A stretch of 22,949 bases of DNA from a virus. This document shows, in pieces, positions 4,083 through 13,129 of this stretch. Location: positions 1 to 22,949 of IMG/VR virus record IMGVR_UViG_3300048583_000208; one strand, written 5' to 3'. The position numbers and the translations under genes are program-made. Each line of letters begins with the position of its first letter. The first letter of the stretch is position 1. Below the pieces are notes generated by a model that was not told the DNA's origin, searched no databases, and was given only the letters and a program-made list of their open reading frames with translations.

Positions 4083-4325
4083 ATGAAAGAAAAAGCACTT
4101 AAATTTTTACTTGAAAAAGTACTTATTCCTTATTTATCTGTAAATGGAATATTAGCATCTTGTATTATACAATTATTTGTAATATTGTTAAAGTTATTTG
4201 ACTTTATTCAGATCAATTGGTTTTTAGTTTTTTTTGTTATTTATTTATATATAGTAACACTTGTATCAACCGTAGTATTTTTAATTAATAGTATCAACCA
4301 AATAACAAAGTTTGAAGATGAATAA
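4083..4325 (+). CDS. Small two-helix membrane protein, 80 aa
   Basis: Most of the chain is hydrophobic, with probable membrane helices at about residues 21-40 and 45-69, a charged N-terminus (MKEKALKFLLEK) and a short acidic C-terminus (KFEDE). Size and layout would suit a holin or another small phage membrane protein, but no endolysin gene is adjacent and no family is recognised, so holin is only one option. The leader AAACAAAACACA supports the start. It overlaps the next gene by 8 bases, suggesting coupled translation. Confidence 0.7.
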   Translation: MKEKALKFLLEKVLIPYLSVNGILASCIIQLFVILLKLFDFIQINWFLVFFVIYLYIVTLVSTVVFLINSINQITKFEDE

Positions 4326-4584
4326 TGTAGATCACGTATTGCTATGTTCTGGAAAAGTAAAAAACAAGTACTCACCAGTAAGTATTTGGAATCAAGGAAG
4401 GATGATTCAAGAAGGGTTACATCAACCCTACTTAGAAAAATCAGAAAAGTTTCATGCTAATAAACAAGAAAGAAGAAAAAGAGTATTTTTTAATCAACAG
4501 ACTAAAGAAATAAAAGCAGCAATTAAATTAGCACTTACAGTACCTAGTACTAAAGTATTAATAGATCAAAAAATACAATTTTAA
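4318..4584 (+). CDS. Small hypothetical protein, 88 aa
   Basis: I do not recognise this protein. It is basic and soluble, with a Lys/Arg cluster (KQERRKRVFF, about residues 50-59) that could contact nucleic acid and a C-terminal helix (EIKAAIKLAL). I chose the ATG at 4318 over an in-frame TTG two codons earlier because ATG dominates here. The ATG sits inside the last codons of the membrane-protein gene (8-base overlap). Two hairpins follow the stop. Confidence 0.65.
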   Translation: MNNVDHVLLCSGKVKNKYSPVSIWNQGRMIQEGLHQPYLEKSEKFHANKQERRKRVFFNQQTKEIKAAIKLALTVPSTKVLIDQKIQF

Positions 4585-4593
4585 TATGTGAGG

Positions 4594-4620
4594 GCACTCC
4601 ACAATAAGAGAGTGCTATTT
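4594..4620 (+). terminator. Small hairpin, possible terminator
   Basis: A 6-bp stem (GCACTC at 4594-4599 with GAGTGC at 4610-4615) has a 10-base loop and is followed by TATTTT. Alone it is modest. It lies 11 bases upstream of a stronger hairpin, so the two may act as a tandem terminator. Confidence 0.45.
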
Positions 4621-4625
4621 TAAAT

Positions 4626-4658
4626 AGGGAGTAGAACTTAGTTTTACTCCCTTTATTT
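4626..4658 (+). terminator. Hairpin terminator
   Basis: A perfect 8-bp stem (AGGGAGTA at 4626-4633 with TACTCCCT at 4645-4652) has an 11-base loop. AAAT upstream and TTATTT downstream extend it with a bulge, giving a bidirectional-looking terminator before the gene at 4680. Confidence 0.65.
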
Positions 4659-4679
4659 ATTAACCAAATATCAAAAACA

Positions 4680-5132
4680 ATGTCAAGAAGAAAAGTTGAA
4701 TTTACACAAGCTCAAAAAGAGGCAATAGTTAGAGAATTTATGAGTATGTCTAAAACACCATTAAGTAATACTGTTATATTATATAATATAAAAGAAAGAC
4801 TTAAAATGTCAATGCATTTAAATGCGTTTCTTAAAAAATTTAAAGAATTATATCCAGAGTTTAAGGGTTTGAAAGATACTTATGAAGGCAGACTCATTAA
4901 TAAAGGAAGGCAACCTAATACAGTAACAATAGATAATAAGACTGTACTTTTTAATTCTACAAATGATATTAAAGAAGAACAAGTAGAAGAAGTTAAAAGA
5001 AAAAGACTTAAAAAACTTGATCCTTTAGAATCTACTATTGTAAGAATGATTCAAGTTGAAAAAGAAAAACTAAGTGATGAAATAAAATCACAATTCAAAA
5101 CAAAATTAATAAACTTTGTAAATACTTTATAA
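4680..5132 (+). CDS. Basic hypothetical protein, possibly DNA-binding, 150 aa
   Basis: The protein is strongly basic and mainly helical. Residues 1-60 (MSRRKVEFTQAQKEAIVREF onward) could form a three-helix unit of helix-turn-helix type, with KTPLSNTVILYNIKERLKM as the putative recognition part. A Lys/Arg-rich linker (EVKRKRLKKLD, about residues 104-114) precedes a long C-terminal helix. A DNA-binding or regulatory role would fit but no family is recognised. It starts a new unit after two hairpins, with leader ATCAAAAACA. Its stop TAA shares its last base with the ATG of the next gene. Confidence 0.7.
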   Translation: MSRRKVEFTQAQKEAIVREFMSMSKTPLSNTVILYNIKERLKMSMHLNAFLKKFKELYPEFKGLKDTYEGRLINKGRQPNTVTIDNKTVLFNSTNDIKEEQVEEVKRKRLKKLDPLESTIVRMIQVEKEKLSDEIKSQFKTKLINFVNTL

Positions 5133-5524
5133 TGCAAATAATTTTAGTTATATTTATGTTGTATTTTCCTTCTAGTCTATTCATAATCTTTATATTACTT
5201 TCTAAACAAAGAATATATAAAGATCGTGCTAATATGTACAAGAAGAAGTACGAAGATGGAAATAAGCTCGATTATAAATTAAAGTTACTAAAACTTCTTA
5301 ATATGTCCACAACAGTGAGAGATGCTAGACGTAGAAATGAAGTACAAAATATATTGCATAATAATAATATTCAATATAAAAAGACTGATAATTATATAGA
5401 GTTTTATTTTAATGATAGAGTCTATAAATACAAAAGTACAACTAATAGATTATTAGATGTACTAGAACAAATGTGGCATAGAGAAGGACTCATGATGCTA
5501 TATAACATGTTTAATAAACAATAA
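5132..5524 (+). CDS. Membrane-anchored small protein, 130 aa
   Basis: One N-terminal membrane helix (about residues 2-23, with FPSSLFIIFILL) acts as an anchor or uncleaved signal. A basic helical region (KQRIYKDRANMYKKKYEDGN) and a predicted alpha/beta cytoplasmic domain follow, with the segment NNNIQYKKTDNYIEFYFNDR. The family is not recognised. The start overlaps the previous stop by one base (TAATG). It is the last phage-type gene before the foreign island, and its stop lies one base before the ATG of the first cassette ORF, so the island's left junction is very close to, or inside, the start of that ORF. Confidence 0.7.
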   Translation: MQIILVIFMLYFPSSLFIIFILLSKQRIYKDRANMYKKKYEDGNKLDYKLKLLKLLNMSTTVRDARRRNEVQNILHNNNIQYKKTDNYIEFYFNDRVYKYKSTTNRLLDVLEQMWHREGLMMLYNMFNKQ

Positions 5525-5525
5525 T

Positions 5526-5543
5526 ATGAACACAGAAAAACAA
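5526..5543 (+). repeat. Left copy of 18-bp direct repeat bracketing the cassette island
   Basis: The sequence ATGAACACAGAAAAACAA is identical to 7659-7676. In both places it is the first six codons (MNTEKQ) of an ORF. The two copies lie 2133 bases apart and bracket all four cassettes. Confidence 0.7.
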
Positions 5544-5789
5544 CAACAAGATTTAGTTGCTTCAATCAAGCACGAATTAGCAAAAGAGAATGAATTTTAC
5601 AAACCGTCATCGTTTTATCATTCTGTATGGTTTCAGCCTTCATCAGGTCGCTTTTTGTTTGCCGACCAATACACAAGATATGAGGTTATTGAACCATTGA
5701 TTGAAAATAAAACTTTGGTTTTTGTCGGTGCGGAAAATCATCAAGGTGAACAAATGTTGCGTTATGTGCTGTCGCAGGGTTGCCGATAA
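5526..5789 (+). CDS. Cassette 1 ORF, hypothetical protein, 87 aa
   Basis: The function is unknown. The soluble protein has a charged Gln-rich start (MNTEKQQQDLVASIKHELAK) and an aromatic middle (FYKPSSFYHSVWFQPSSGR), ending in SQGCR. Codon use (CGC, GCC, GTC, CAG) is richer in G+C than that of the neighbouring phage genes, supporting a foreign origin. The stop TAA (5787-5789) lies inside the left box CGATAAC of the attC-like site that follows, as is usual for integron cassettes. The first six codons duplicate those of the gene at 7659, so this start may be a hybrid produced at the island's left junction rather than the cassette's own start. Confidence 0.65.
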   Translation: MNTEKQQQDLVASIKHELAKENEFYKPSSFYHSVWFQPSSGRFLFADQYTRYEVIEPLIENKTLVFVGAENHQGEQMLRYVLSQGCR

Positions 5790-5884
5790 CGGATGGCGGT
5801 ATGGTTTAGTAAAGGCTGACAACTACCGACAAATCGAAGAAATAAACTTTAAACAGCCTTTATTAACTATACCGCTTGTTAGCG
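5784..5884 (+). repeat. attC-like site 1
   Basis: The outer boxes are CGATAAC (5784-5790) and GTTAGCG (5878-5884). The inner arms are GCGGTAT (5796-5802) with ATACCGC (5869-5875), and TAAAGGCTG (5810-5818) with CAGCCTTTA (5854-5862). Unpaired bases between outer boxes and arms are asymmetric, as the extrahelical bases of attC sites are. By analogy, the crossover would fall between G5878 and T5879. The stop of the preceding ORF lies in the left box. Confidence 0.65.
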
Positions 5885-5921
5885 TTTCGTTTTGAGCGTT
5901 GGTGGTGAAAACAAATTTAAA

Positions 5922-6161
5922 ATGGACTTTAAAAAACAAGTATCTGAACTAAAAATAGTAACAGTAACAAAACCGAGAGTATATTTACAATGGATTAATA
6001 GTGAAAAAGGTAGAGATAAACACGATTGTTACGAAAGGGTTGAAGACGTTTATGTCAGATATATAAATACACACAATCCATCAATGGTAATTATTCAAGG
6101 AGATAAGTTTTTTAAAGACCTTGAAGAAATGTATCAAAGTGCGTTGGCAAATGAACGCTAA
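5922..6161 (+). CDS. Cassette 2 ORF, hypothetical protein, 79 aa
   Basis: The family is not recognised. I chose the ATG at 5922 because it follows the A-rich leader AAAACAAATTTAAA. An in-frame TTG at 5892 would start within the cassette leader, only 8 bases after attC-like site 1, and has no such context. The protein is small and soluble, alternating strands and helices (IVTVTKPRVYLQWIN, then VYVRYINTHNPSMVII, then a C-terminal acidic helix). The TAA stop (6159-6161) sits in the left box CGCTAAC of the next attC-like site. As with most cassette ORFs there is no clue to function. Confidence 0.65.
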   Translation: MDFKKQVSELKIVTVTKPRVYLQWINSEKGRDKHDCYERVEDVYVRYINTHNPSMVIIQGDKFFKDLEEMYQSALANER

Positions 6162-6252
6162 CGGTGGCGATTGGCGAAGGAAAAGCCTTGCACTACCGTT
6201 GAATTTCAGCACTACACTTTATGGCTTTTATTTTGCCAATTGCGTGTTATGC
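6156..6252 (+). repeat. attC-like site 2
   Basis: The outer boxes are CGCTAAC (6156-6162) and GTTATGC (6246-6252). The inner arms are GCGATTGGC (6167-6175) with GCCAATTGC (6235-6243), one G-T pair, and AAAAGCC (6181-6187) with GGCTTTT (6223-6229). The spacing and asymmetry match site 1. The 48 bases after the right box (6253-6300) are the A/T-rich leader of the next cassette ORF. Confidence 0.65.
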
Positions 6253-6300
6253 CTTCGTTCTTTTTCACAAATAAATTATTAACAAACAAAAAATAAAATT

Positions 6301-6549
6301 ATGTCAGAATTAAAAACAGAACATTTAGTGTATATGTCAGATGAAATGTACACGCCAATTCACTACAAAGGAATGATTGTTAAACAACCATTTTTTGAAG
6401 GTAAAGGGAATCATTCAGTTGCTCAATTAGAGGCTATATGTGAACAATTTAAAGAGTACGTTCATCAACAACAAATTATTAAGCAAAATTGTATGAAGCA
6501 TATTGTCGAATTAAAGTTCGGTGTCGAGTTTCCACAGAATGAGGCATAA
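6301..6549 (+). CDS. Cassette 3 ORF, hypothetical protein, 82 aa
   Basis: The function is unknown. The short soluble protein begins MSELKTEHLVYMSDEMYTPI and has a Gly-rich turn (FFEGKGNHS), followed by a helical C-terminal half with a Gln run (HQQQIIKQN). The ATG follows AACAAACAAAAAATAAAATT, a good Bacteroidota-type leader. The stop TAA (6547-6549) lies in the left box GCATAAC of attC-like site 3. The ORF, its own leader and its trailing site form a self-contained unit of about 385 bases, the size of a typical single-gene cassette. Confidence 0.65.
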   Translation: MSELKTEHLVYMSDEMYTPIHYKGMIVKQPFFEGKGNHSVAQLEAICEQFKEYVHQQQIIKQNCMKHIVELKFGVEFPQNEA

Positions 6550-6637
6550 CGTTTTGCGTATATGAGAAGTGGCACTTGTAGAATGTTGAAATTAAGCACA
6601 AATGTTTGTGTGCCATTTCTTATATACGCTGTTAGCA
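6544..6637 (+). repeat. attC-like site 3, longest hairpin
   Basis: The outer boxes are GCATAAC (6544-6550) and GTTAGCA (6631-6637). The inner arm is a 20-base stem (6556-6575 with 6610-6629) in which 18 positions are Watson-Crick pairs and the other two pair G with T. It is the most regular of the four sites. A T-rich loop and a few unpaired bases next to the boxes complete an attC-like layout. Confidence 0.65.
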
Positions 6638-6727
6638 GTAGTACGGATTTAAACCACAAATGCTCAATCGGAGAATTGAACCTTTTTCTTTTCTTTTTTG
6701 TGCGGTGGGTAAAATAAAAAATAAATA

Positions 6728-7525
6728 ATGGAACGAAATATAATTTATAACGAAGATTGTAAGATTACCTTGAAAAGACTTCAAGATAAATCTATTGATG
6801 GGATAATCACATCACCACCATATAACATCAATACAGAAAGAAGCGATTGTTATTACAATAATGGATATTCTGAATTAGATGGGTTAAGTGAAAATGACTA
6901 TCTTGAAGTAAGAACTAATGAATTTAAAGAATTTTCAAGAGTGATAAATGATACTGGTGTGATTTGCTACAACATATCCTATGCAAAAGAAAATCCAATT
7001 TTACCAACATTATTAGTTGCGAAAATTCATAATGAAACGGATTTAACTATTGCAGACATTATTTGTTGGAAGAAACCAAATGCAATACCTTTCCAGACTT
7101 CACCAACTAAATTAAGTAGGATTACTGAATTGATTTATGTTTTTGTAAAAAAAGAACATTTACACACATTCAAAACTAACAAAGAAGTAAGTAAGGTAAA
7201 TGAAAAAACAGGGCAGAAGTTTTACAAAAACTATGTGAATTACATTGAAGCACGAAATAATGATGGATACCAATGTCAATTAAAAGCATCGTTTTCACAA
7301 GATTTAGTGAACCAACTTATAAATATTTACTTTCCAAAAGGTAGTTTGATTTATGAACCATTTACAGGAATAGGAACTACTGAATTAAGTTGTATTGAAA
7401 ATGAATGTGATTATATTGGTAGCGAATTGGTAAAAGACCATTATGAAATTTCTTTAAAGAGGGTGGAAGAAAAAAGAAAAGAAAAAGATTTTAACGTAGT
7501 AACTTCATTCGGAGATGGAATGTAG
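6728..7525 (+). CDS. Beta-class DNA methyltransferase (N6-adenine or N4-cytosine), cassette 4
   Basis: This enzyme would move a methyl group from S-adenosylmethionine to the exocyclic amino group of adenine or cytosine in DNA. The catalytic motif IV, TSPPYNI (about residues 28-34), comes before the SAM-binding motif I, YEPFTGIGTTE (about residues 209-219), which is the beta-class order. SPPY is frequent in N4-cytosine enzymes but also occurs in N6-adenine ones, so the base is undecided. The length (265 aa) is normal for a stand-alone enzyme. The central part (about residues 95-160) holds the likely target-recognition region. No restriction gene is adjacent. In a phage, such an enzyme could mask DNA from host restriction. 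The stop lies 6 bases before attC-like site 4 and the leader is AAAATAAAAAATAAATA. Confidence 0.9.
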   Translation: MERNIIYNEDCKITLKRLQDKSIDGIITSPPYNINTERSDCYYNNGYSELDGLSENDYLEVRTNEFKEFSRVINDTGVICYNISYAKENPILPTLLVAKIHNETDLTIADIICWKKPNAIPFQTSPTKLSRITELIYVFVKKEHLHTFKTNKEVSKVNEKTGQKFYKNYVNYIEARNNDGYQCQLKASFSQDLVNQLINIYFPKGSLIYEPFTGIGTTELSCIENECDYIGSELVKDHYEISLKRVEEKRKEKDFNVVTSFGDGM

Positions 7526-7531
7526 TATTAC

Positions 7532-7611
7532 TGCTAACGGTTTGCAGCTACACGCAGTAGCCGAAGCAAGGCATTGAGCGTGGCGGCTATTGCGCCAAAC
7601 TGCGGTTATCG
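7532..7611 (+). repeat. attC-like site 4
   Basis: The outer boxes are TGCTAAC (7532-7538) and GTTATCG (7605-7611). The arms are GTTTG (7540-7544) with CAAAC (7596-7600), and GCAGTAGCCG (7554-7563) with CGGCTATTGC (7584-7593), 9 of 10 paired. It is shorter and less regular than sites 1-3. The following 47 bases (7612-7658) resemble the leader of cassette 3 (both have ATTATTAACAA before an A-rich run), so they may belong to a fifth, incomplete cassette. Confidence 0.55.
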
Positions 7612-7658
7612 GCTGCCCTTCTTTCGGAATGATTATTAACAATTTAAACAAATAAAAA

Positions 7659-7676
7659 ATGAACACAGAAAAACAA
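7659..7676 (+). repeat. Right copy of 18-bp direct repeat
   Basis: This is identical to 5526-5543 (ATGAACACAGAAAAACAA). Recombination between the copies would remove all four cassettes and leave the gene at 7659 directly behind the phage gene ending at 5524. Confidence 0.7.
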
Positions 7677-7934
7677 AAAGAAGTATATAGGAATATAACC
7701 AGATCAAAAGCAGATTACTGGTTTGACAAGGCAAAAGGAACTGATATTACAATTGCCAATATGGAAATGCAAGTTAACGACCCATACAGGAAAGAGCGTG
7801 GTGAAGTTACAGATGAACAATTAGAATTTTACAAAAAGCGTATAGAAGAACTCAAAAAAGAAAGAAAAATGTATTCTAAACGAGGTAAAGAAGTTCTAAA
7901 ACAGATAGAAATGGATTTAAAAGATATCCAGTAA
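7659..7934 (+). CDS. Small Lys/Glu-rich coiled-coil protein, 91 aa
   Basis: The function is not recognised. The protein is highly charged. Its second half (EQLEFYKKRIEELKKERKMY and onward) has heptad-like spacing and is a probable coiled coil. The start MNTEKQ duplicates that of the cassette ORF at 5526. No attC-like site follows, so it is either the phage gene into whose 5' end the island entered or the body of a fifth cassette that lost its site. Its base composition is between that of the phage genes and the cassettes. The next gene starts 31 bases downstream. Confidence 0.7.
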   Translation: MNTEKQKEVYRNITRSKADYWFDKAKGTDITIANMEMQVNDPYRKERGEVTDEQLEFYKKRIEELKKERKMYSKRGKEVLKQIEMDLKDIQ

Positions 7935-9403: not shown

Positions 9404-10126
9404 ATGAAACAATACAAACTAATTAAAGAATATCCTAATAGTCCTAAATTAGGTACTATTTTATCTGATGATATTAAAAATATACTTAATTATCCAGAGT
9501 TTTGGGAAGAAGTAATTGAAAAAGATTATGAAATATTATCTTTTATTAGAAAGGATAACTCTTCTTATAAAGGACTAATATTTAAATTAAATCCTATTAC
9601 TAAATTATATAATTCTAATATTAAAGCATCAGATCGTAGATTAGAGCATTTTTTTAAAAAAGAATTTGATATTCATTCGGTAAAAAGATTATCTGATGGT
9701 GAAATATTTACTGTTGGTGATAAAGTAAATGGTTTTGATTTAGGAAGAAATGTAGATTTAACTACAATTATATTAGAAGATAATGAATTACTAATAGGAC
9801 TAAGAGATTTAGGAATGTATAATATAAATAGTCTTAAACATGCTAAACAACCATTATTCAAAACTGAAGATGGTGTTGATATTTTTAAAGGACAAAAAGT
9901 ATGGTATACAAATTCTACTGCTAGTAATATTTGGGATAGTAGAGCAGATGAAAAATATCATAATGGAAAAGGGTGTCTTAAATATTTTTCAACAAAAGAA
10001 GCTGCTGAAGAATATATCATACTTAATAAAACTTGCTTATCTATTAATGATATTAAAACGTATTTAAATTTTCAACGATTTGCATCTTTAGAAGATATTA
10101 AAGACATTGTAAAATCAAAATTATGA
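9404..10126 (+). CDS. Conserved-type phage hypothetical protein, 240 aa
   Basis: Several phrases are of a kind recurring in Bacteroidota phage proteins of unknown role: an opening YKLIKEYPNSPKLGT; YPEFWEEVIEKDYEILSF (about residues 30-47); HSVKRLSDGEIFTVGDKV (about residues 91-108); QPLFKTEDGVDIFKGQKVW (about residues 149-167); and YFSTKEAAEEYI (about residues 194-205). The modular, repeated-strand look suggests small binding domains rather than an enzyme. It is soluble, without a signal peptide. The stop TGA overlaps the ATG of the following 57-residue gene (ATGA). Gene status is secure and function is unknown. Confidence 0.8.
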   Translation: MKQYKLIKEYPNSPKLGTILSDDIKNILNYPEFWEEVIEKDYEILSFIRKDNSSYKGLIFKLNPITKLYNSNIKASDRRLEHFFKKEFDIHSVKRLSDGEIFTVGDKVNGFDLGRNVDLTTIILEDNELLIGLRDLGMYNINSLKHAKQPLFKTEDGVDIFKGQKVWYTNSTASNIWDSRADEKYHNGKGCLKYFSTKEAAEEYIILNKTCLSINDIKTYLNFQRFASLEDIKDIVKSKL

Positions 10127-10296
10127 ACGCATATAAATTTTATGGGAAGTGCGGGCTTATTGTAACTATGTCTATACAAAGAAAACTAGGAATAAAAAGT
10201 GAAGATATATTTAAAGAAATACAAGAAATAAATGGTGAAATTATAGTTACTAAAAATGGTAAGAAATATTCATTAGAGTTAACAGAAATTACATGA
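10123..10296 (+). CDS. Tiny hypothetical protein, 57 aa
   Basis: This short gene fills the gap between its neighbours. It starts in the ATGA overlap with the gene ending at 10126 and stops in another ATGA overlap with the gene starting at 10293. The product is basic and probably beta-rich at its end (GEIIVTKNGKKYSLEL). The tight two-sided coupling argues that it is real despite its size. No family is recognised. Confidence 0.7.
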   Translation: MNAYKFYGKCGLIVTMSIQRKLGIKSEDIFKEIQEINGEIIVTKNGKKYSLELTEIT

Positions 10297-10535
10297 TAAC
10301 TAATATTTATTATAGGAATAATTATATTAATGTAAATGTAGATAAACCTCCTAAAGATTTAAGACAATTAAGAGCATTTCTATTAGCAAATAATACAAGA
10401 GATTGTTTTCTAAAATCTCAAGGAGGATACTATAAATTAGAATTAGATAATAAACTTTATTTTATATCTAGAGTGTTATATTTATTAACATTAAAAGATT
10501 GGTTAGAAATAGCAAAGAATGATAGAACAAAATAA
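10293..10535 (+). CDS. Small hypothetical protein, 80 aa
   Basis: I do not recognise this protein. It is basic and Tyr/Asn-rich, with a helix (PPKDLRQLRAFLLANN) and a C-terminal helical part ending in NDRTK. It begins in a 4-base ATGA overlap and overlaps the next gene by 17 bases. It is part of a ladder of small overlapping genes leading to the polymerase. Confidence 0.7.
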   Translation: MITNIYYRNNYINVNVDKPPKDLRQLRAFLLANNTRDCFLKSQGGYYKLELDNKLYFISRVLYLLTLKDWLEIAKNDRTK

Positions 10536-10713
10536 ATCATATATACTAACTAATAAAAGTACTAAAAGACAATTTATAGTTCGTATAATGAAAAAAGGAC
10601 AATATACACTTAATATTAGGTGGCCTAATGGGTTTGAAAACATCAGACCTATTGAAAGTATTAAATCTGAATTTTTAATAGAAGAATTTAATCATGGCAT
10701 TATTAAGACATAA
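10519..10713 (+). CDS. Small basic hypothetical protein, 64 aa
   Basis: The family is not recognised. The protein is basic and probably a small beta-barrel-like fold, with short strands separated by polar turns (SYILTNKSTKRQFIVRIM, then QYTLNIRWPNG). It overlaps the preceding gene by 17 bases and the following gene by 20 bases. Confidence 0.65.
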   Translation: MIEQNKSYILTNKSTKRQFIVRIMKKGQYTLNIRWPNGFENIRPIESIKSEFLIEEFNHGIIKT

Positions 10714-10894
10714 AGTTATAGTAGGCATTAACGGCGGTTATTGGTCTATAGAAGAAAAAAAGTTTGGTAGTTATCATAGAGCTACAAAATTTACTACTGA
10801 TGAACAGTTAAAACAACTAACTGAAGCTGATTTAGAAGAGATTGCTAAAATAATGATCTTTGAAATCAAAATGTTATATGCAGAAGCAGAGTAA
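10694..10894 (+). CDS. Small hypothetical protein, 66 aa
   Basis: The family is not recognised. A strand-rich N-terminus (HKVIVGINGGYWSIEEKKFG) is followed by an acidic helix (QLKQLTEADLEEIAKIMIF). The start overlaps the previous gene by 20 bases and the end overlaps the next by 17 if the ATG at 10878 is used there. Confidence 0.65.
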   Translation: MALLRHKVIVGINGGYWSIEEKKFGSYHRATKFTTDEQLKQLTEADLEEIAKIMIFEIKMLYAEAE

Positions 10895-11126
10895 TCATGT
10901 ATTTGTAAATATTATTAATTTAATAGATCTAAAAGAAGAAGAGTTAGATAGTTTTACTATTGCTACAGATCAAGTAGTTAAGAATATAATAATAAAACAC
11001 CCAGAAGCTAAAAAGTTTCTTGAAAATAGTTGTATAGAAATGTTAGGCCCAAATAAAGAATCTGAATTTTTACTTTATACTTGGATTCATAGTCACCAAA
11101 TATATGCATTTATTAAAAAATTATGA
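10878..11126 (+). CDS. Small hypothetical protein, 82 aa
   Basis: The family is not recognised. I chose the ATG at 10878 over an in-frame TTG at 10860 because it gives a 17-base overlap with the upstream gene, matching the 17- and 20-base overlaps just before. The protein is mixed alpha/beta (MQKQSNHVFVNIINLIDLKE, then DQVVKNIIIKHPEAKKFL). Its TGA stop overlaps the polymerase ATG (ATGA), so the two are probably translated together. Confidence 0.6.
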   Translation: MQKQSNHVFVNIINLIDLKEEELDSFTIATDQVVKNIIIKHPEAKKFLENSCIEMLGPNKESEFLLYTWIHSHQIYAFIKKL

Positions 11127-13129
11127 TATTTCTTATAACAAAACAATTAGAGTTATTGAGTAGACCTGTTAATTCAGGTATAGCAAGTTGTGATGTAGAT
11201 TATGCTCTAAAAGAGTTAAGAAAAATGACCTTTATTGCAGTGGATTCAGAAACAACGGGATTTGATCCATATGTTAATAAATTACTTTGTTTACAGTTAG
11301 GAAACAAAGAAAAACAATTTGTTATAGATACATCAGATAGGATACATATACCTATTATACAAGAGTTATTTAAAGATAATTCAAAAACCTTTTTATTTCA
11401 TAATGCTGCATTTGACCTTAGATTTCTCTTTCCTTACTTTCCAATCAACATAATATGTACTTTTCTTAATGAAAAGATAATAAATAGGGGATTAGATTTT
11501 GAAAGAGCGTCTTTGGCAGATGTAGCTTATAAATACTTAAAGATAGTTTTAGATAAAACTGTTCGTGGTAGTATTCATAGAGAAGGACTAACTACAAGAG
11601 TAATAAGATATGCAGCAGATGATATAAAATATCTTGAAGATATTATGGTATTTCAAAATAATAAGCTTCAAGAAAAAGGACTGTTAAATTATGCTAGATT
11701 GGAAAACAGATTTGTTTTGCCATTGGCATATACTGCATATAATGGTATGCCATTTAATAAAGAAAAATGGAAAGAAAAATGTAATGAAGATACAGAAGAA
11801 CTTTCAAAAGCTGTAGATGCTTTAAATATTTTTGTAATAGAAAATTTTGATAACCCTACTTTTGTATCTAAACAATTAGATTTGTTTGCAACAAAACAAG
11901 CTACTTGTAATATAAAATGGTCTTCTGATTTGCAAGTTAAAAAACTATTAGATTATATGGGATATGATTTAAGAATAGAAGAAAAAGGAAAATCTAAGAT
12001 TAGCATAGATCAAAAACATATAGAAAAGTTTAAAGGTACTTCCCCTATTATTGATTTATATATAGATTATAGTAAAAAAGCTAAGTTAAATAGTACTTAT
12101 GGAAATAATTTCTTTAGTTTTATAAACAAAGAAACACAAAGAGTACATACAGTGTATACTCAAATAATGAATACTGGTAGAATTTCTTCTGGCAAGGTTA
12201 ATAAGAAGAAAAATATGAATTATCCTAATCTACAAAATATACCATCTGATTCAAGACATAGAAGTTGTTTTGAAGTAAAAGGAGATAATATATTAGTAGT
12301 AGGAGATTATTCAGGACAAGAACAAATTATATTAGCTAATGCTTCTTTAGAACCTAATCTATTAAAATTTTATGATGATAATTTAGGAGATATGCATAGT
12401 TATGTTGCTTCTAAAATATTTCCATACTTAGCAGATATAGATTTAAAAGTAATTAAAGAAAAATACAAAGATGAAAGGCAGAAAGCTAAAGCTGCTGGCT
12501 TTGCTATTAACTATGGTGGAGTAGGCATGACTATTGCTAGAAATATGAATATTTCTGTAGAAGAAGGTAATAAAATATACGAAGAATACTTTAAAGCCTT
12601 TCCAAAACTAAAAGCCTATTTTAATAAAGTAATCAATGAGACTTTGAAAAATGGTTATATTACTATAAATACAATAACCAATAGTAAAACATATTTAGAT
12701 AGATATGAGCATTTTCTAGAACTTCAAAGTGATATAAAACAAGAAGGATTTTGGGAAAAGTATAGAAAAGAAAAAGAAAAAAGTAGTTTTGAATTTGTTC
12801 AAGTTTTAAAACCATTAGTAAGAAATTATTTCATTACTAAAGGACAAATAGAAAGAGATAGCTTAAACTATCCTATTCAAGGTACTGCTGCTGAAATGAC
12901 AAAGATAGCTGCTATATATTTTATGGAATGGATTATAAAAAATAATTATTTTGGAATAGTTAAATTAATAAACCTAGTACATGATGAAATAGTAGTAGAA
13001 TGTCCAGAAGAATTAGCTGAAACAGTAAAAGATAAATTAAAAGAAGATATGGAAAGAGCAGGAGCTTTATTTTGTAAAAGAGTTCCAATTAAAGCTAATC
13101 CAGTAATAACTAAATTTTGGTATCACTAA
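11123..13129 (+). CDS. polA: Family A (Pol I-type) DNA polymerase with 3'-5' exonuclease
   Basis: This is the phage replicative polymerase. The N-terminal DnaQ-like proofreading domain has AVDSETTGF (D41, E43), FHNAAFDLRFL (about 92-102) and YAADDIKYLED (about 163-173), which are the three exonuclease motifs. The polymerase domain has motif A VVGDYSGQEQ with D395, motif B with R452, K456, F460 and Y464 spaced as in E. coli Pol I, QGTAAE (586-591), and motif C LVHDEIVVE with H620, D621 and E622. No 5'-3' nuclease domain is present. The 668-residue length fits phage PolA proteins. A charged insert (about residues 515-580) lies between motifs B and C. The start overlaps the upstream stop by 4 bases and the next gene starts at the last base of its stop codon. 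All catalytic residues are intact. Confidence 0.97.
   Translation: MIFLITKQLELLSRPVNSGIASCDVDYALKELRKMTFIAVDSETTGFDPYVNKLLCLQLGNKEKQFVIDTSDRIHIPIIQELFKDNSKTFLFHNAAFDLRFLFPYFPINIICTFLNEKIINRGLDFERASLADVAYKYLKIVLDKTVRGSIHREGLTTRVIRYAADDIKYLEDIMVFQNNKLQEKGLLNYARLENRFVLPLAYTAYNGMPFNKEKWKEKCNEDTEELSKAVDALNIFVIENFDNPTFVSKQLDLFATKQATCNIKWSSDLQVKKLLDYMGYDLRIEEKGKSKISIDQKHIEKFKGTSPIIDLYIDYSKKAKLNSTYGNNFFSFINKETQRVHTVYTQIMNTGRISSGKVNKKKNMNYPNLQNIPSDSRHRSCFEVKGDNILVVGDYSGQEQIILANASLEPNLLKFYDDNLGDMHSYVASKIFPYLADIDLKVIKEKYKDERQKAKAAGFAINYGGVGMTIARNMNISVEEGNKIYEEYFKAFPKLKAYFNKVINETLKNGYITINTITNSKTYLDRYEHFLELQSDIKQEGFWEKYRKEKEKSSFEFVQVLKPLVRNYFITKGQIERDSLNYPIQGTAAEMTKIAAIYFMEWIIKNNYFGIVKLINLVHDEIVVECPEELAETVKDKLKEDMERAGALFCKRVPIKANPVITKFWYH

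Follow-up and report, generated by a model that had tools for sequence, protein, structure and literature searches.

The window analysed here is a virus record of 22,949 bases (IMG/VR record IMGVR_UViG_3300048583_000208), which is itself only a fragment. Between positions 5,526 and 7,658 it carries an integron-like cassette array of four open reading frames (ORFs); behind each of them stands a long folded element with outer boxes ending in TAAC and starting with GTTA. The parts of the array, its junctions and the two genes adjoining it all lie on the plus strand. The gene of cassette 1 (5,526-5,789) encodes 87 amino acids with 58-97% identity to cassette genes of other contigs, and is followed by the attC-like site 1 (5,784-5,884, boxes CGATAAC...GTTAGCG). 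The gene of cassette 2 (5,922-6,161, 79 amino acids), taken from the ORF list, had no match in Pfam and PHROG searches; site 2 follows at 6,156-6,252 (CGCTAAC...GTTATGC). The product of cassette 3 (6,301-6,549, 82 amino acids) has relatives at 67-100% amino acid identity in other viral contigs, and the stem of the next element, site 3 (6,544-6,637, GCATAAC...GTTAGCA), was found again beside other genes in two contigs (L015 and L108). Cassette 4 (6,728-7,525) encodes an N6/N4 DNA methyltransferase of 265 amino acids (PF01555, E = 1.5e-26), the sole recognisable product among the four cassettes, and precedes site 4 (7,532-7,611, TGCTAAC...GTTATCG). Behind this last site lies the displaced 5' leader of cassette 1 (7,605-7,658, GTTATCGGCTGCCC...AAATAAAAA). 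An exact 18-nucleotide repeat, ATGAACACAGAAAAACAA, marks the junctions on the left (5,526-5,543) and on the right (7,659-7,676).

A previous inspection of these letters without database searches (the sequence-only reading) had proposed four such units, with sites at 5,784, 6,156, 6,544 and 7,532 and the TAAC/GTTA box pattern, facing in the direction of phage transcription. All of this was borne out. A detector of linked pairs, which requires a stem and a match of at least 7 nucleotides between the 3' box of one site and the 5' box of the next, found three linked pairs in the window, whereas 714 kb of sequence (the window and other loci) gave none after shuffling. We built a covariance model from 35 sites of other phage contigs, leaving out the window and choosing the training sites by the linked-pair detector; the model contains 22 stem pairs, 15 of which show compensatory changes. 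It matched exactly four places in the window, with E-values that should be taken as rough: 5,779-5,889 for site 1, which is also recognised by its fold (39.6 bits, E = 1.4e-5), 6,151-6,257 for site 2 (48.7 bits, E = 2.7e-7), 6,539-6,642 for site 3 (89.3 bits, E = 5.9e-15) and 7,527-7,616 for site 4 (31.7 bits, E = 4.3e-4). Because both ends of a cassette would once have been joined in one circular cassette, the 3' box (GTTA...) of a site is expected to be reverse-complementary to the 5' box that follows. The box matches were indeed cyclic, running from site 1 to 2, 2 to 3, 3 to 4 and 4 back to 1 over 9, 9, 10 and 9 nucleotides, against 4-6 nucleotides for the remaining combinations. These results confirm that the array is real and exclude chance. 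The window sites matched no Rfam family, Rfam being without any attC family.

Since site 4 pairs with site 1, the leader of cassette 1 was expected after site 4, and it was found there. Leader and gene of cassette 1 form one unbroken sequence (GTTATCGGCTGCCC...AAATAAAAAATGAACACAG) in two bacterial assemblies (L015 and L016) and in a viral contig (L028). In the window their order is reversed, the gene starting at 5,526 and the leader lying 2.1 kb away. The identity between the two ends of the array extends over the 18 nucleotides of the repeat and ends at once upstream, with 0 nucleotides in common. Judged from this arrangement, the four cassettes of the array form a closed circle that has been opened inside cassette 1, its order being permuted. 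The sequence-only interpretation is partly supported: the array is mobile and integron-like and is located in a phage, but it is circularly permuted and did not enter as a plain linear block. The gene to its right (7,659-7,934, from the ORF list) opens with the 18-nucleotide repeat and would be a phage gene interrupted at its start codon; its relatives were searched for and none was found. The four-cassette circle was likely inserted by a short-homology crossover with the start of this phage gene, which shares the 18 nucleotides. As regards entry only, the donor may alternatively have been a linear stretch with a copy of cassette 1 at each end, produced by tandem duplication, which recombined with the phage gene. 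Recombination of such a stretch at the 18-nucleotide repeat would leave exactly the arrangement seen here, so that the window sequence alone fits both donors alike, and repeats do occur within arrays, the end of one array (L189) being found again 3 kb further up in another (L188). However, the linear donor requires an extra duplication, whereas systems of this kind normally excise cassettes as circles. We therefore regard the linear donor as unlikely, although it is otherwise compatible with the explanation proposed below.

Many IMG/VR contigs contain a relative of cassette 1, 3 or 4, with amino acid identities reaching 100% and among differing neighbours, and none of these contigs holds two of the three cassettes together. 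Where cassettes 1 and 3 have close relatives, similarity ends at or near the TAAC box 3' of the gene, and the next hairpin differs. Among 399 genomes of the order searched, a relative of cassette 1 was detected only in two (G001 and G003), and the search for cassettes in plasmids gave no match. Of 122 cassette proteins scanned, about 14 were DNA methyltransferases and the remainder had mostly no recognised function, in agreement with PADLOC. The methyltransferase cargo suggests a benefit against host restriction, as already proposed for clusters of attC sites lacking integron integrases (CALINs) in phages (PMC9892861). A contig of a 'Bacillota bacterium' assembly (L022, G002:C258) that contains the relative of cassette 1 has tape-measure-like and terminase-like genes at 4,104-7,556 and 10,081-11,532; it resembles a phage contig, and its label or binning is probably wrong. 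The same methyltransferase genes (L039 and L040) and cassette 3 genes (L110-L112) were also observed in large phage contigs without a surrounding hairpin site, where they stand as ordinary genes of the phage.

Three contigs that share cassettes with the window (L108, L033 and G406) encode a tyrosine recombinase beside the array, the gene of which follows directly after the TAAC box of the last cassette; in L033 this last cassette is a relative of cassette 4 (95%). When IMG/VR was scanned with these three recombinase proteins, 105 relatives were obtained and 80 were kept. A variable box ending in TAAC is fused to a conserved TATNATATATAA before the recombinase gene in 78 of the 80 loci, the other two being truncated by the end of the contig, and in 67 of the 80 the box of the last hairpin matches the box fused to this conserved site. 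The array was present in every one of the 52 recombinase loci whose upstream sequence exceeds 2.5 kb, and linked hairpin pairs numbered 280 upstream of the recombinase (487 kb) versus 7 downstream (670 kb). The longest ORF points at the recombinase in 373 of 402 units (403 cassette units). Loci with TAAC|TATNATATATAA thus possess a capture site next to the recombinase, as integrons do, and the window does not. A terminase-like match, weak in some cases, was detected in 18 of the 47 longer recombinase contigs; the others are viral according to IMG/VR. The description of the array as lacking an integrase holds only for this fragment, while its cassette pool appears to be served by a phage non-IntI recombinase in many IMG/VR contigs.

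Scanning with the DNA pattern only returned 17 capture sites, about half of them followed by a recombinase and most others by a sequence resembling a decayed start. In L226, L227, L228, L231, L238 and L239, the capture site precedes an apparently degraded recombinase start, which suggests that platforms may decay into arrays devoid of recombinase. Several capture sites with arrays were seen in a single phage contig (IMGVR_UViG_3300014502_000005, with L190, L233 and L234), which apparently holds three or more platforms, and at least one of these lacks an intact recombinase.

The array recombinases, 26 of which were tested, group in a single clade (99/92) that is distinct from IntI (99/94) and placed among Xer-like recombinases of Bacteroidota. 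They lack the insertion that IntI carries between conserved patches, and score 99-154 bits against TIGR02249, the cut-off of which is 265. The named family nearest to them by score is XerA/'integron integrase' NF040815, the scores lying under its cut-off; those of its members that are encoded on chromosomes and plasmids are mostly longer, branch outside the array clade and are not accompanied by arrays. Structural matches, obtained with a model of moderate confidence, were an archaeal Xer (4a8e), IntI4 (2a3v) and XerA (5hxy). Among 395 genomes of the class searched, the best relative (49%) is encoded in a prophage and has the same conserved site, preceded by a cytosine methyltransferase; the other bacterial relatives in these genomes have neither an array nor the site at the recombinase. 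A prophage in a 4.1-Mb Bacteroidia chromosome (L225, G767:C1:240000-259999) contains the recombinase, the capture site and one C5-methyltransferase cassette, together with three copies of an apparent reverse-transcriptase gene of the group II intron type.

Natural movement of cassettes was visible at the conserved site. Near-identical contigs share everything to the right of the conserved site and carry unrelated cassettes to its left, the break falling at AAC|TAT. This was observed for L173 and L174 (99.98% identity over 10.85 kb right of the site), L149 and L156 (99.84% over 10.85 kb) and L151 and L154 (100% over 2.65 kb), and the same turnover pattern was found for L194/L195 and L165/L168. 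Misassembly as the source of these differences was considered and is unlikely, since near-identical pairs share just 4-6 nucleotides left of the breakpoint. The most direct case is that of L154 and L152, which are identical in the left flank up to GGAGCATAAC and again on the recombinase side, L152 having 797 additional nucleotides between the two. In this insert an 80-nucleotide hairpin comes first, followed by the box GTTATGTACAGG, a leader, the ORF and a second box, CTTGTACATAAC, so that the hairpin stands 5' of the ORF. The identical flanks and the 797-nucleotide difference indicate the gain of one cassette at the junction of the last box with the conserved site.

We therefore favour, with a probability of about 0.83, the explanation that the window holds a four-cassette array of a phage-borne, integron-like system, in which a phage XerA-like recombinase loads the cassettes, and that the array arrived as a circle. 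The XerA-like tyrosine recombinase would capture cassettes at TAAC|TATNATATATAA, just 5' of its own gene, new cassettes entering where the last TAAC box meets the TAT site. An integrated cassette would then read 5'-hairpin, GTTANNNN box, leader, ORF, NNNNTAAC box-3', with the ORF directed at the recombinase, and phage strains could exchange such cassettes. The window array would have been excised as a four-cassette circle and would have recombined with the phage at the 18 nucleotides shared at the start of the gene rather than at a recombinase site, which would leave an array without an adjacent recombinase. More generally, it is quite probable that Bacteroidota phages encode their own non-IntI Xer/XerA platforms and trade cassettes from virus to virus, often anti-restriction methyltransferases, largely apart from bacterial integrons.

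The proposed phage system resembles the integrons of class 1 and of Vibrio in several respects. Cassette sites are folded in both, with paired outer boxes and inner arms (here attested by the covarying stem, the matches in the window and the linked boxes), and the boxes match in order round each cassette. One cassette is taken up at a site beside the gene of a tyrosine recombinase, the array is located 5' of this gene, and the crossover box has the same reading relative to the recombinase. It differs in that integrons use IntI and the phage recombinase is devoid of the IntI insertion, and in that its platform sits in phage genomes. The polarity of the genes is also different. Integron cassette ORFs read away from the recombinase and are followed by their site on the 3' side, whereas phage ORFs point towards it and have the hairpin on their 5' side; because the cassette genes face the recombinase, an integron-type cassette promoter (Pc) near the recombinase could not serve them. 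The bases next to the boxes agree with this reversal: among 307 phage sites, AACG was found in 298 and TGTT in 306, while all 15 Vibrio sites have AACA and CGTT, so that the phage consensus AACG...TGTT is the reverse complement of the Vibrio AACA...CGTT. The attC-like sites of the window are not canonical attC sites and fit this phage family of sites. Folding energy was dropped as a proof of polarity, because the gene-sense strand is the stabler one not only in phage sites (288 of 307) but in most Vibrio sites too (11 of 15). In the alignment of the hairpins (A3, columns 37 and 87) a near-invariant G.T pair (34/35) was observed in the middle of the stem, which would be a C.A mismatch on the opposite strand and is a candidate mark for strand choice. 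Another system with which the arrays may be compared is that of the pdif modules of Acinetobacter plasmids, in which genes lie between short Xer sites and are thought to move by Xer recombination. Unlike the phage system, pdif modules have double-stranded dif sites without conserved hairpins, and they lack an ordered array coupled to a recombinase gene of its own.

Could the sites simply be ordinary attC sites of Bacteroidota integrons, excised by the IntI of the host, the phage being only a carrier? A CALIN is defined by at least two attC sites and no integrase nearby; in the window there are four attC-like sites and no recombinase, the record being a fragment of 22.9 kb. CALINs in virulent phages, including the flavophage P12002L, are already known (Qi et al. 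2023, PMC9892861), so that the mere observation of such an array is less new than the sequence-only reading had supposed. In the laboratory IntI1 recombined five of six phage attC sites tested, including one site of P12002L (PMC9892861), and the sites of this Polaribacter phage match the same covariance model as those of the window. As in the window, the phage CALINs of that study are integrase-less arrays with DNA methyltransferase cargo; it traces the phage sites to bacterial integrons, and describes no phage recombinase, capture site or reversed cassettes. Against such an origin, the covariance model matched zero sites in the class 1, Vibrio, TJE1 and G021 integron loci. IntI was found in only 1 of 249 genomes of the order (cut-off 1e-60), and the integron concerned (L024) has canonical polarity and a different type of site; in the IntI-bearing genome obtained by this search (G021) the methyltransferase cassette is directed away from IntI, as expected. 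The arrays adjoin a non-IntI recombinase, and the contigs on which bacterial assemblies hold close relatives of cassette 1 are short ones or phage contigs; one of them, labelled as a bacterial assembly (L016), carries genes that look from their sequence like phage tape-measure and terminase genes. An origin in host integrons is therefore improbable. A scheme in which ORFs and stems are shuffled by a bacterial IntI cutting at the R'' box was abandoned once the phage recombinase had been found beside that box. In P12002L itself (L002, 38,027-39,253, minus strand), three sites of the phage family were observed round Mom-like and methyltransferase genes.

We give very little credit to the view that the recombinase is an ordinary phage integrase with terminators or repeats upstream of it by chance, for although phages Ingeline and Freya have relatives (38-40% identity) annotated as integrases, the last TAAC box is fused to the conserved site and matches the previous box at the frequencies given above, cassette turnover in near-identical phages breaks exactly at the capture site, and bacterial relatives at 46-50% identity mostly have no site and array (the exception, L204, being located in a prophage and having the site).

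Several observations weigh against the proposed phage system or its route into the window. Neither a tyrosine recombinase nor a capture site was found in the 22,949-base record, so the tie of the window to the phage recombinase is made through the common site type and the common cassettes. No empty version of the locus, which the sequence-only reading had suggested seeking in related phages, was found among relatives of the polymerase, of the gene at 7,659 and of the gene at 9,404, the relatives of the latter being too distant and without the neighbouring genes; because of this, the crossover at 18 nucleotides is deduced from the permutation. Hairpin and ORF do not always move together, the stems that flank the window cassettes being different from those of their relatives. 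In the few pairs available for this comparison, the upstream stem was kept and the downstream stem changed in two, the reverse was seen in none, and the window pairs had changed on both sides. Finally, because IntI1 recombined a site of P12002L, a bacterial IntI could also act on some phage sites.

The integron is seen as a bacterial platform of which IntI is the defining feature. If the phage platform proposed here is real, ordered cassette capture would not be unique to IntI, and large phages could renew their set of counter-defence genes gene by gene. The phage platform would offer a second, independent system for the study of folded cassette sites, of the origin of cassettes and of one-way gene orientation. 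Phage arrays without a recombinase would be explained as strays or decayed remains of such platforms, the window showing one route of straying. In the literature searched, preprints being outside its scope, phage CALINs are described but no description of a phage-encoded recombinase system was found; the system behind the array is more novel than the bare observation of a CALIN in a phage.

The surroundings of the array are those of a phage genome. One cyanophage aside, the nearest relatives of the DNA polymerase of the record are those of crAss-like phages, with a full-length identity of about 35%. The polymerase is accompanied by a Sak4-like annealing protein, a primase and a DnaB-like helicase. 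On this evidence the record is a fragment of a crAss-like phage, and the kinship of the polymerase together with the neighbouring replication genes indicates that its host is probably a member of the Bacteroidota. The shift in base composition seen by the sequence-only reading is present but modest: the G+C content is 0.33 in the array versus 0.27-0.28 on its flanks, and a phage gene at 8,494, outside the array, also reaches 0.36. The gene on the left (5,132-5,524, from the ORF list) is phage-like in composition (0.24). Its stop codon directly precedes the inserted sequence, one base ahead of the ATG, as in tightly packed phage genes.

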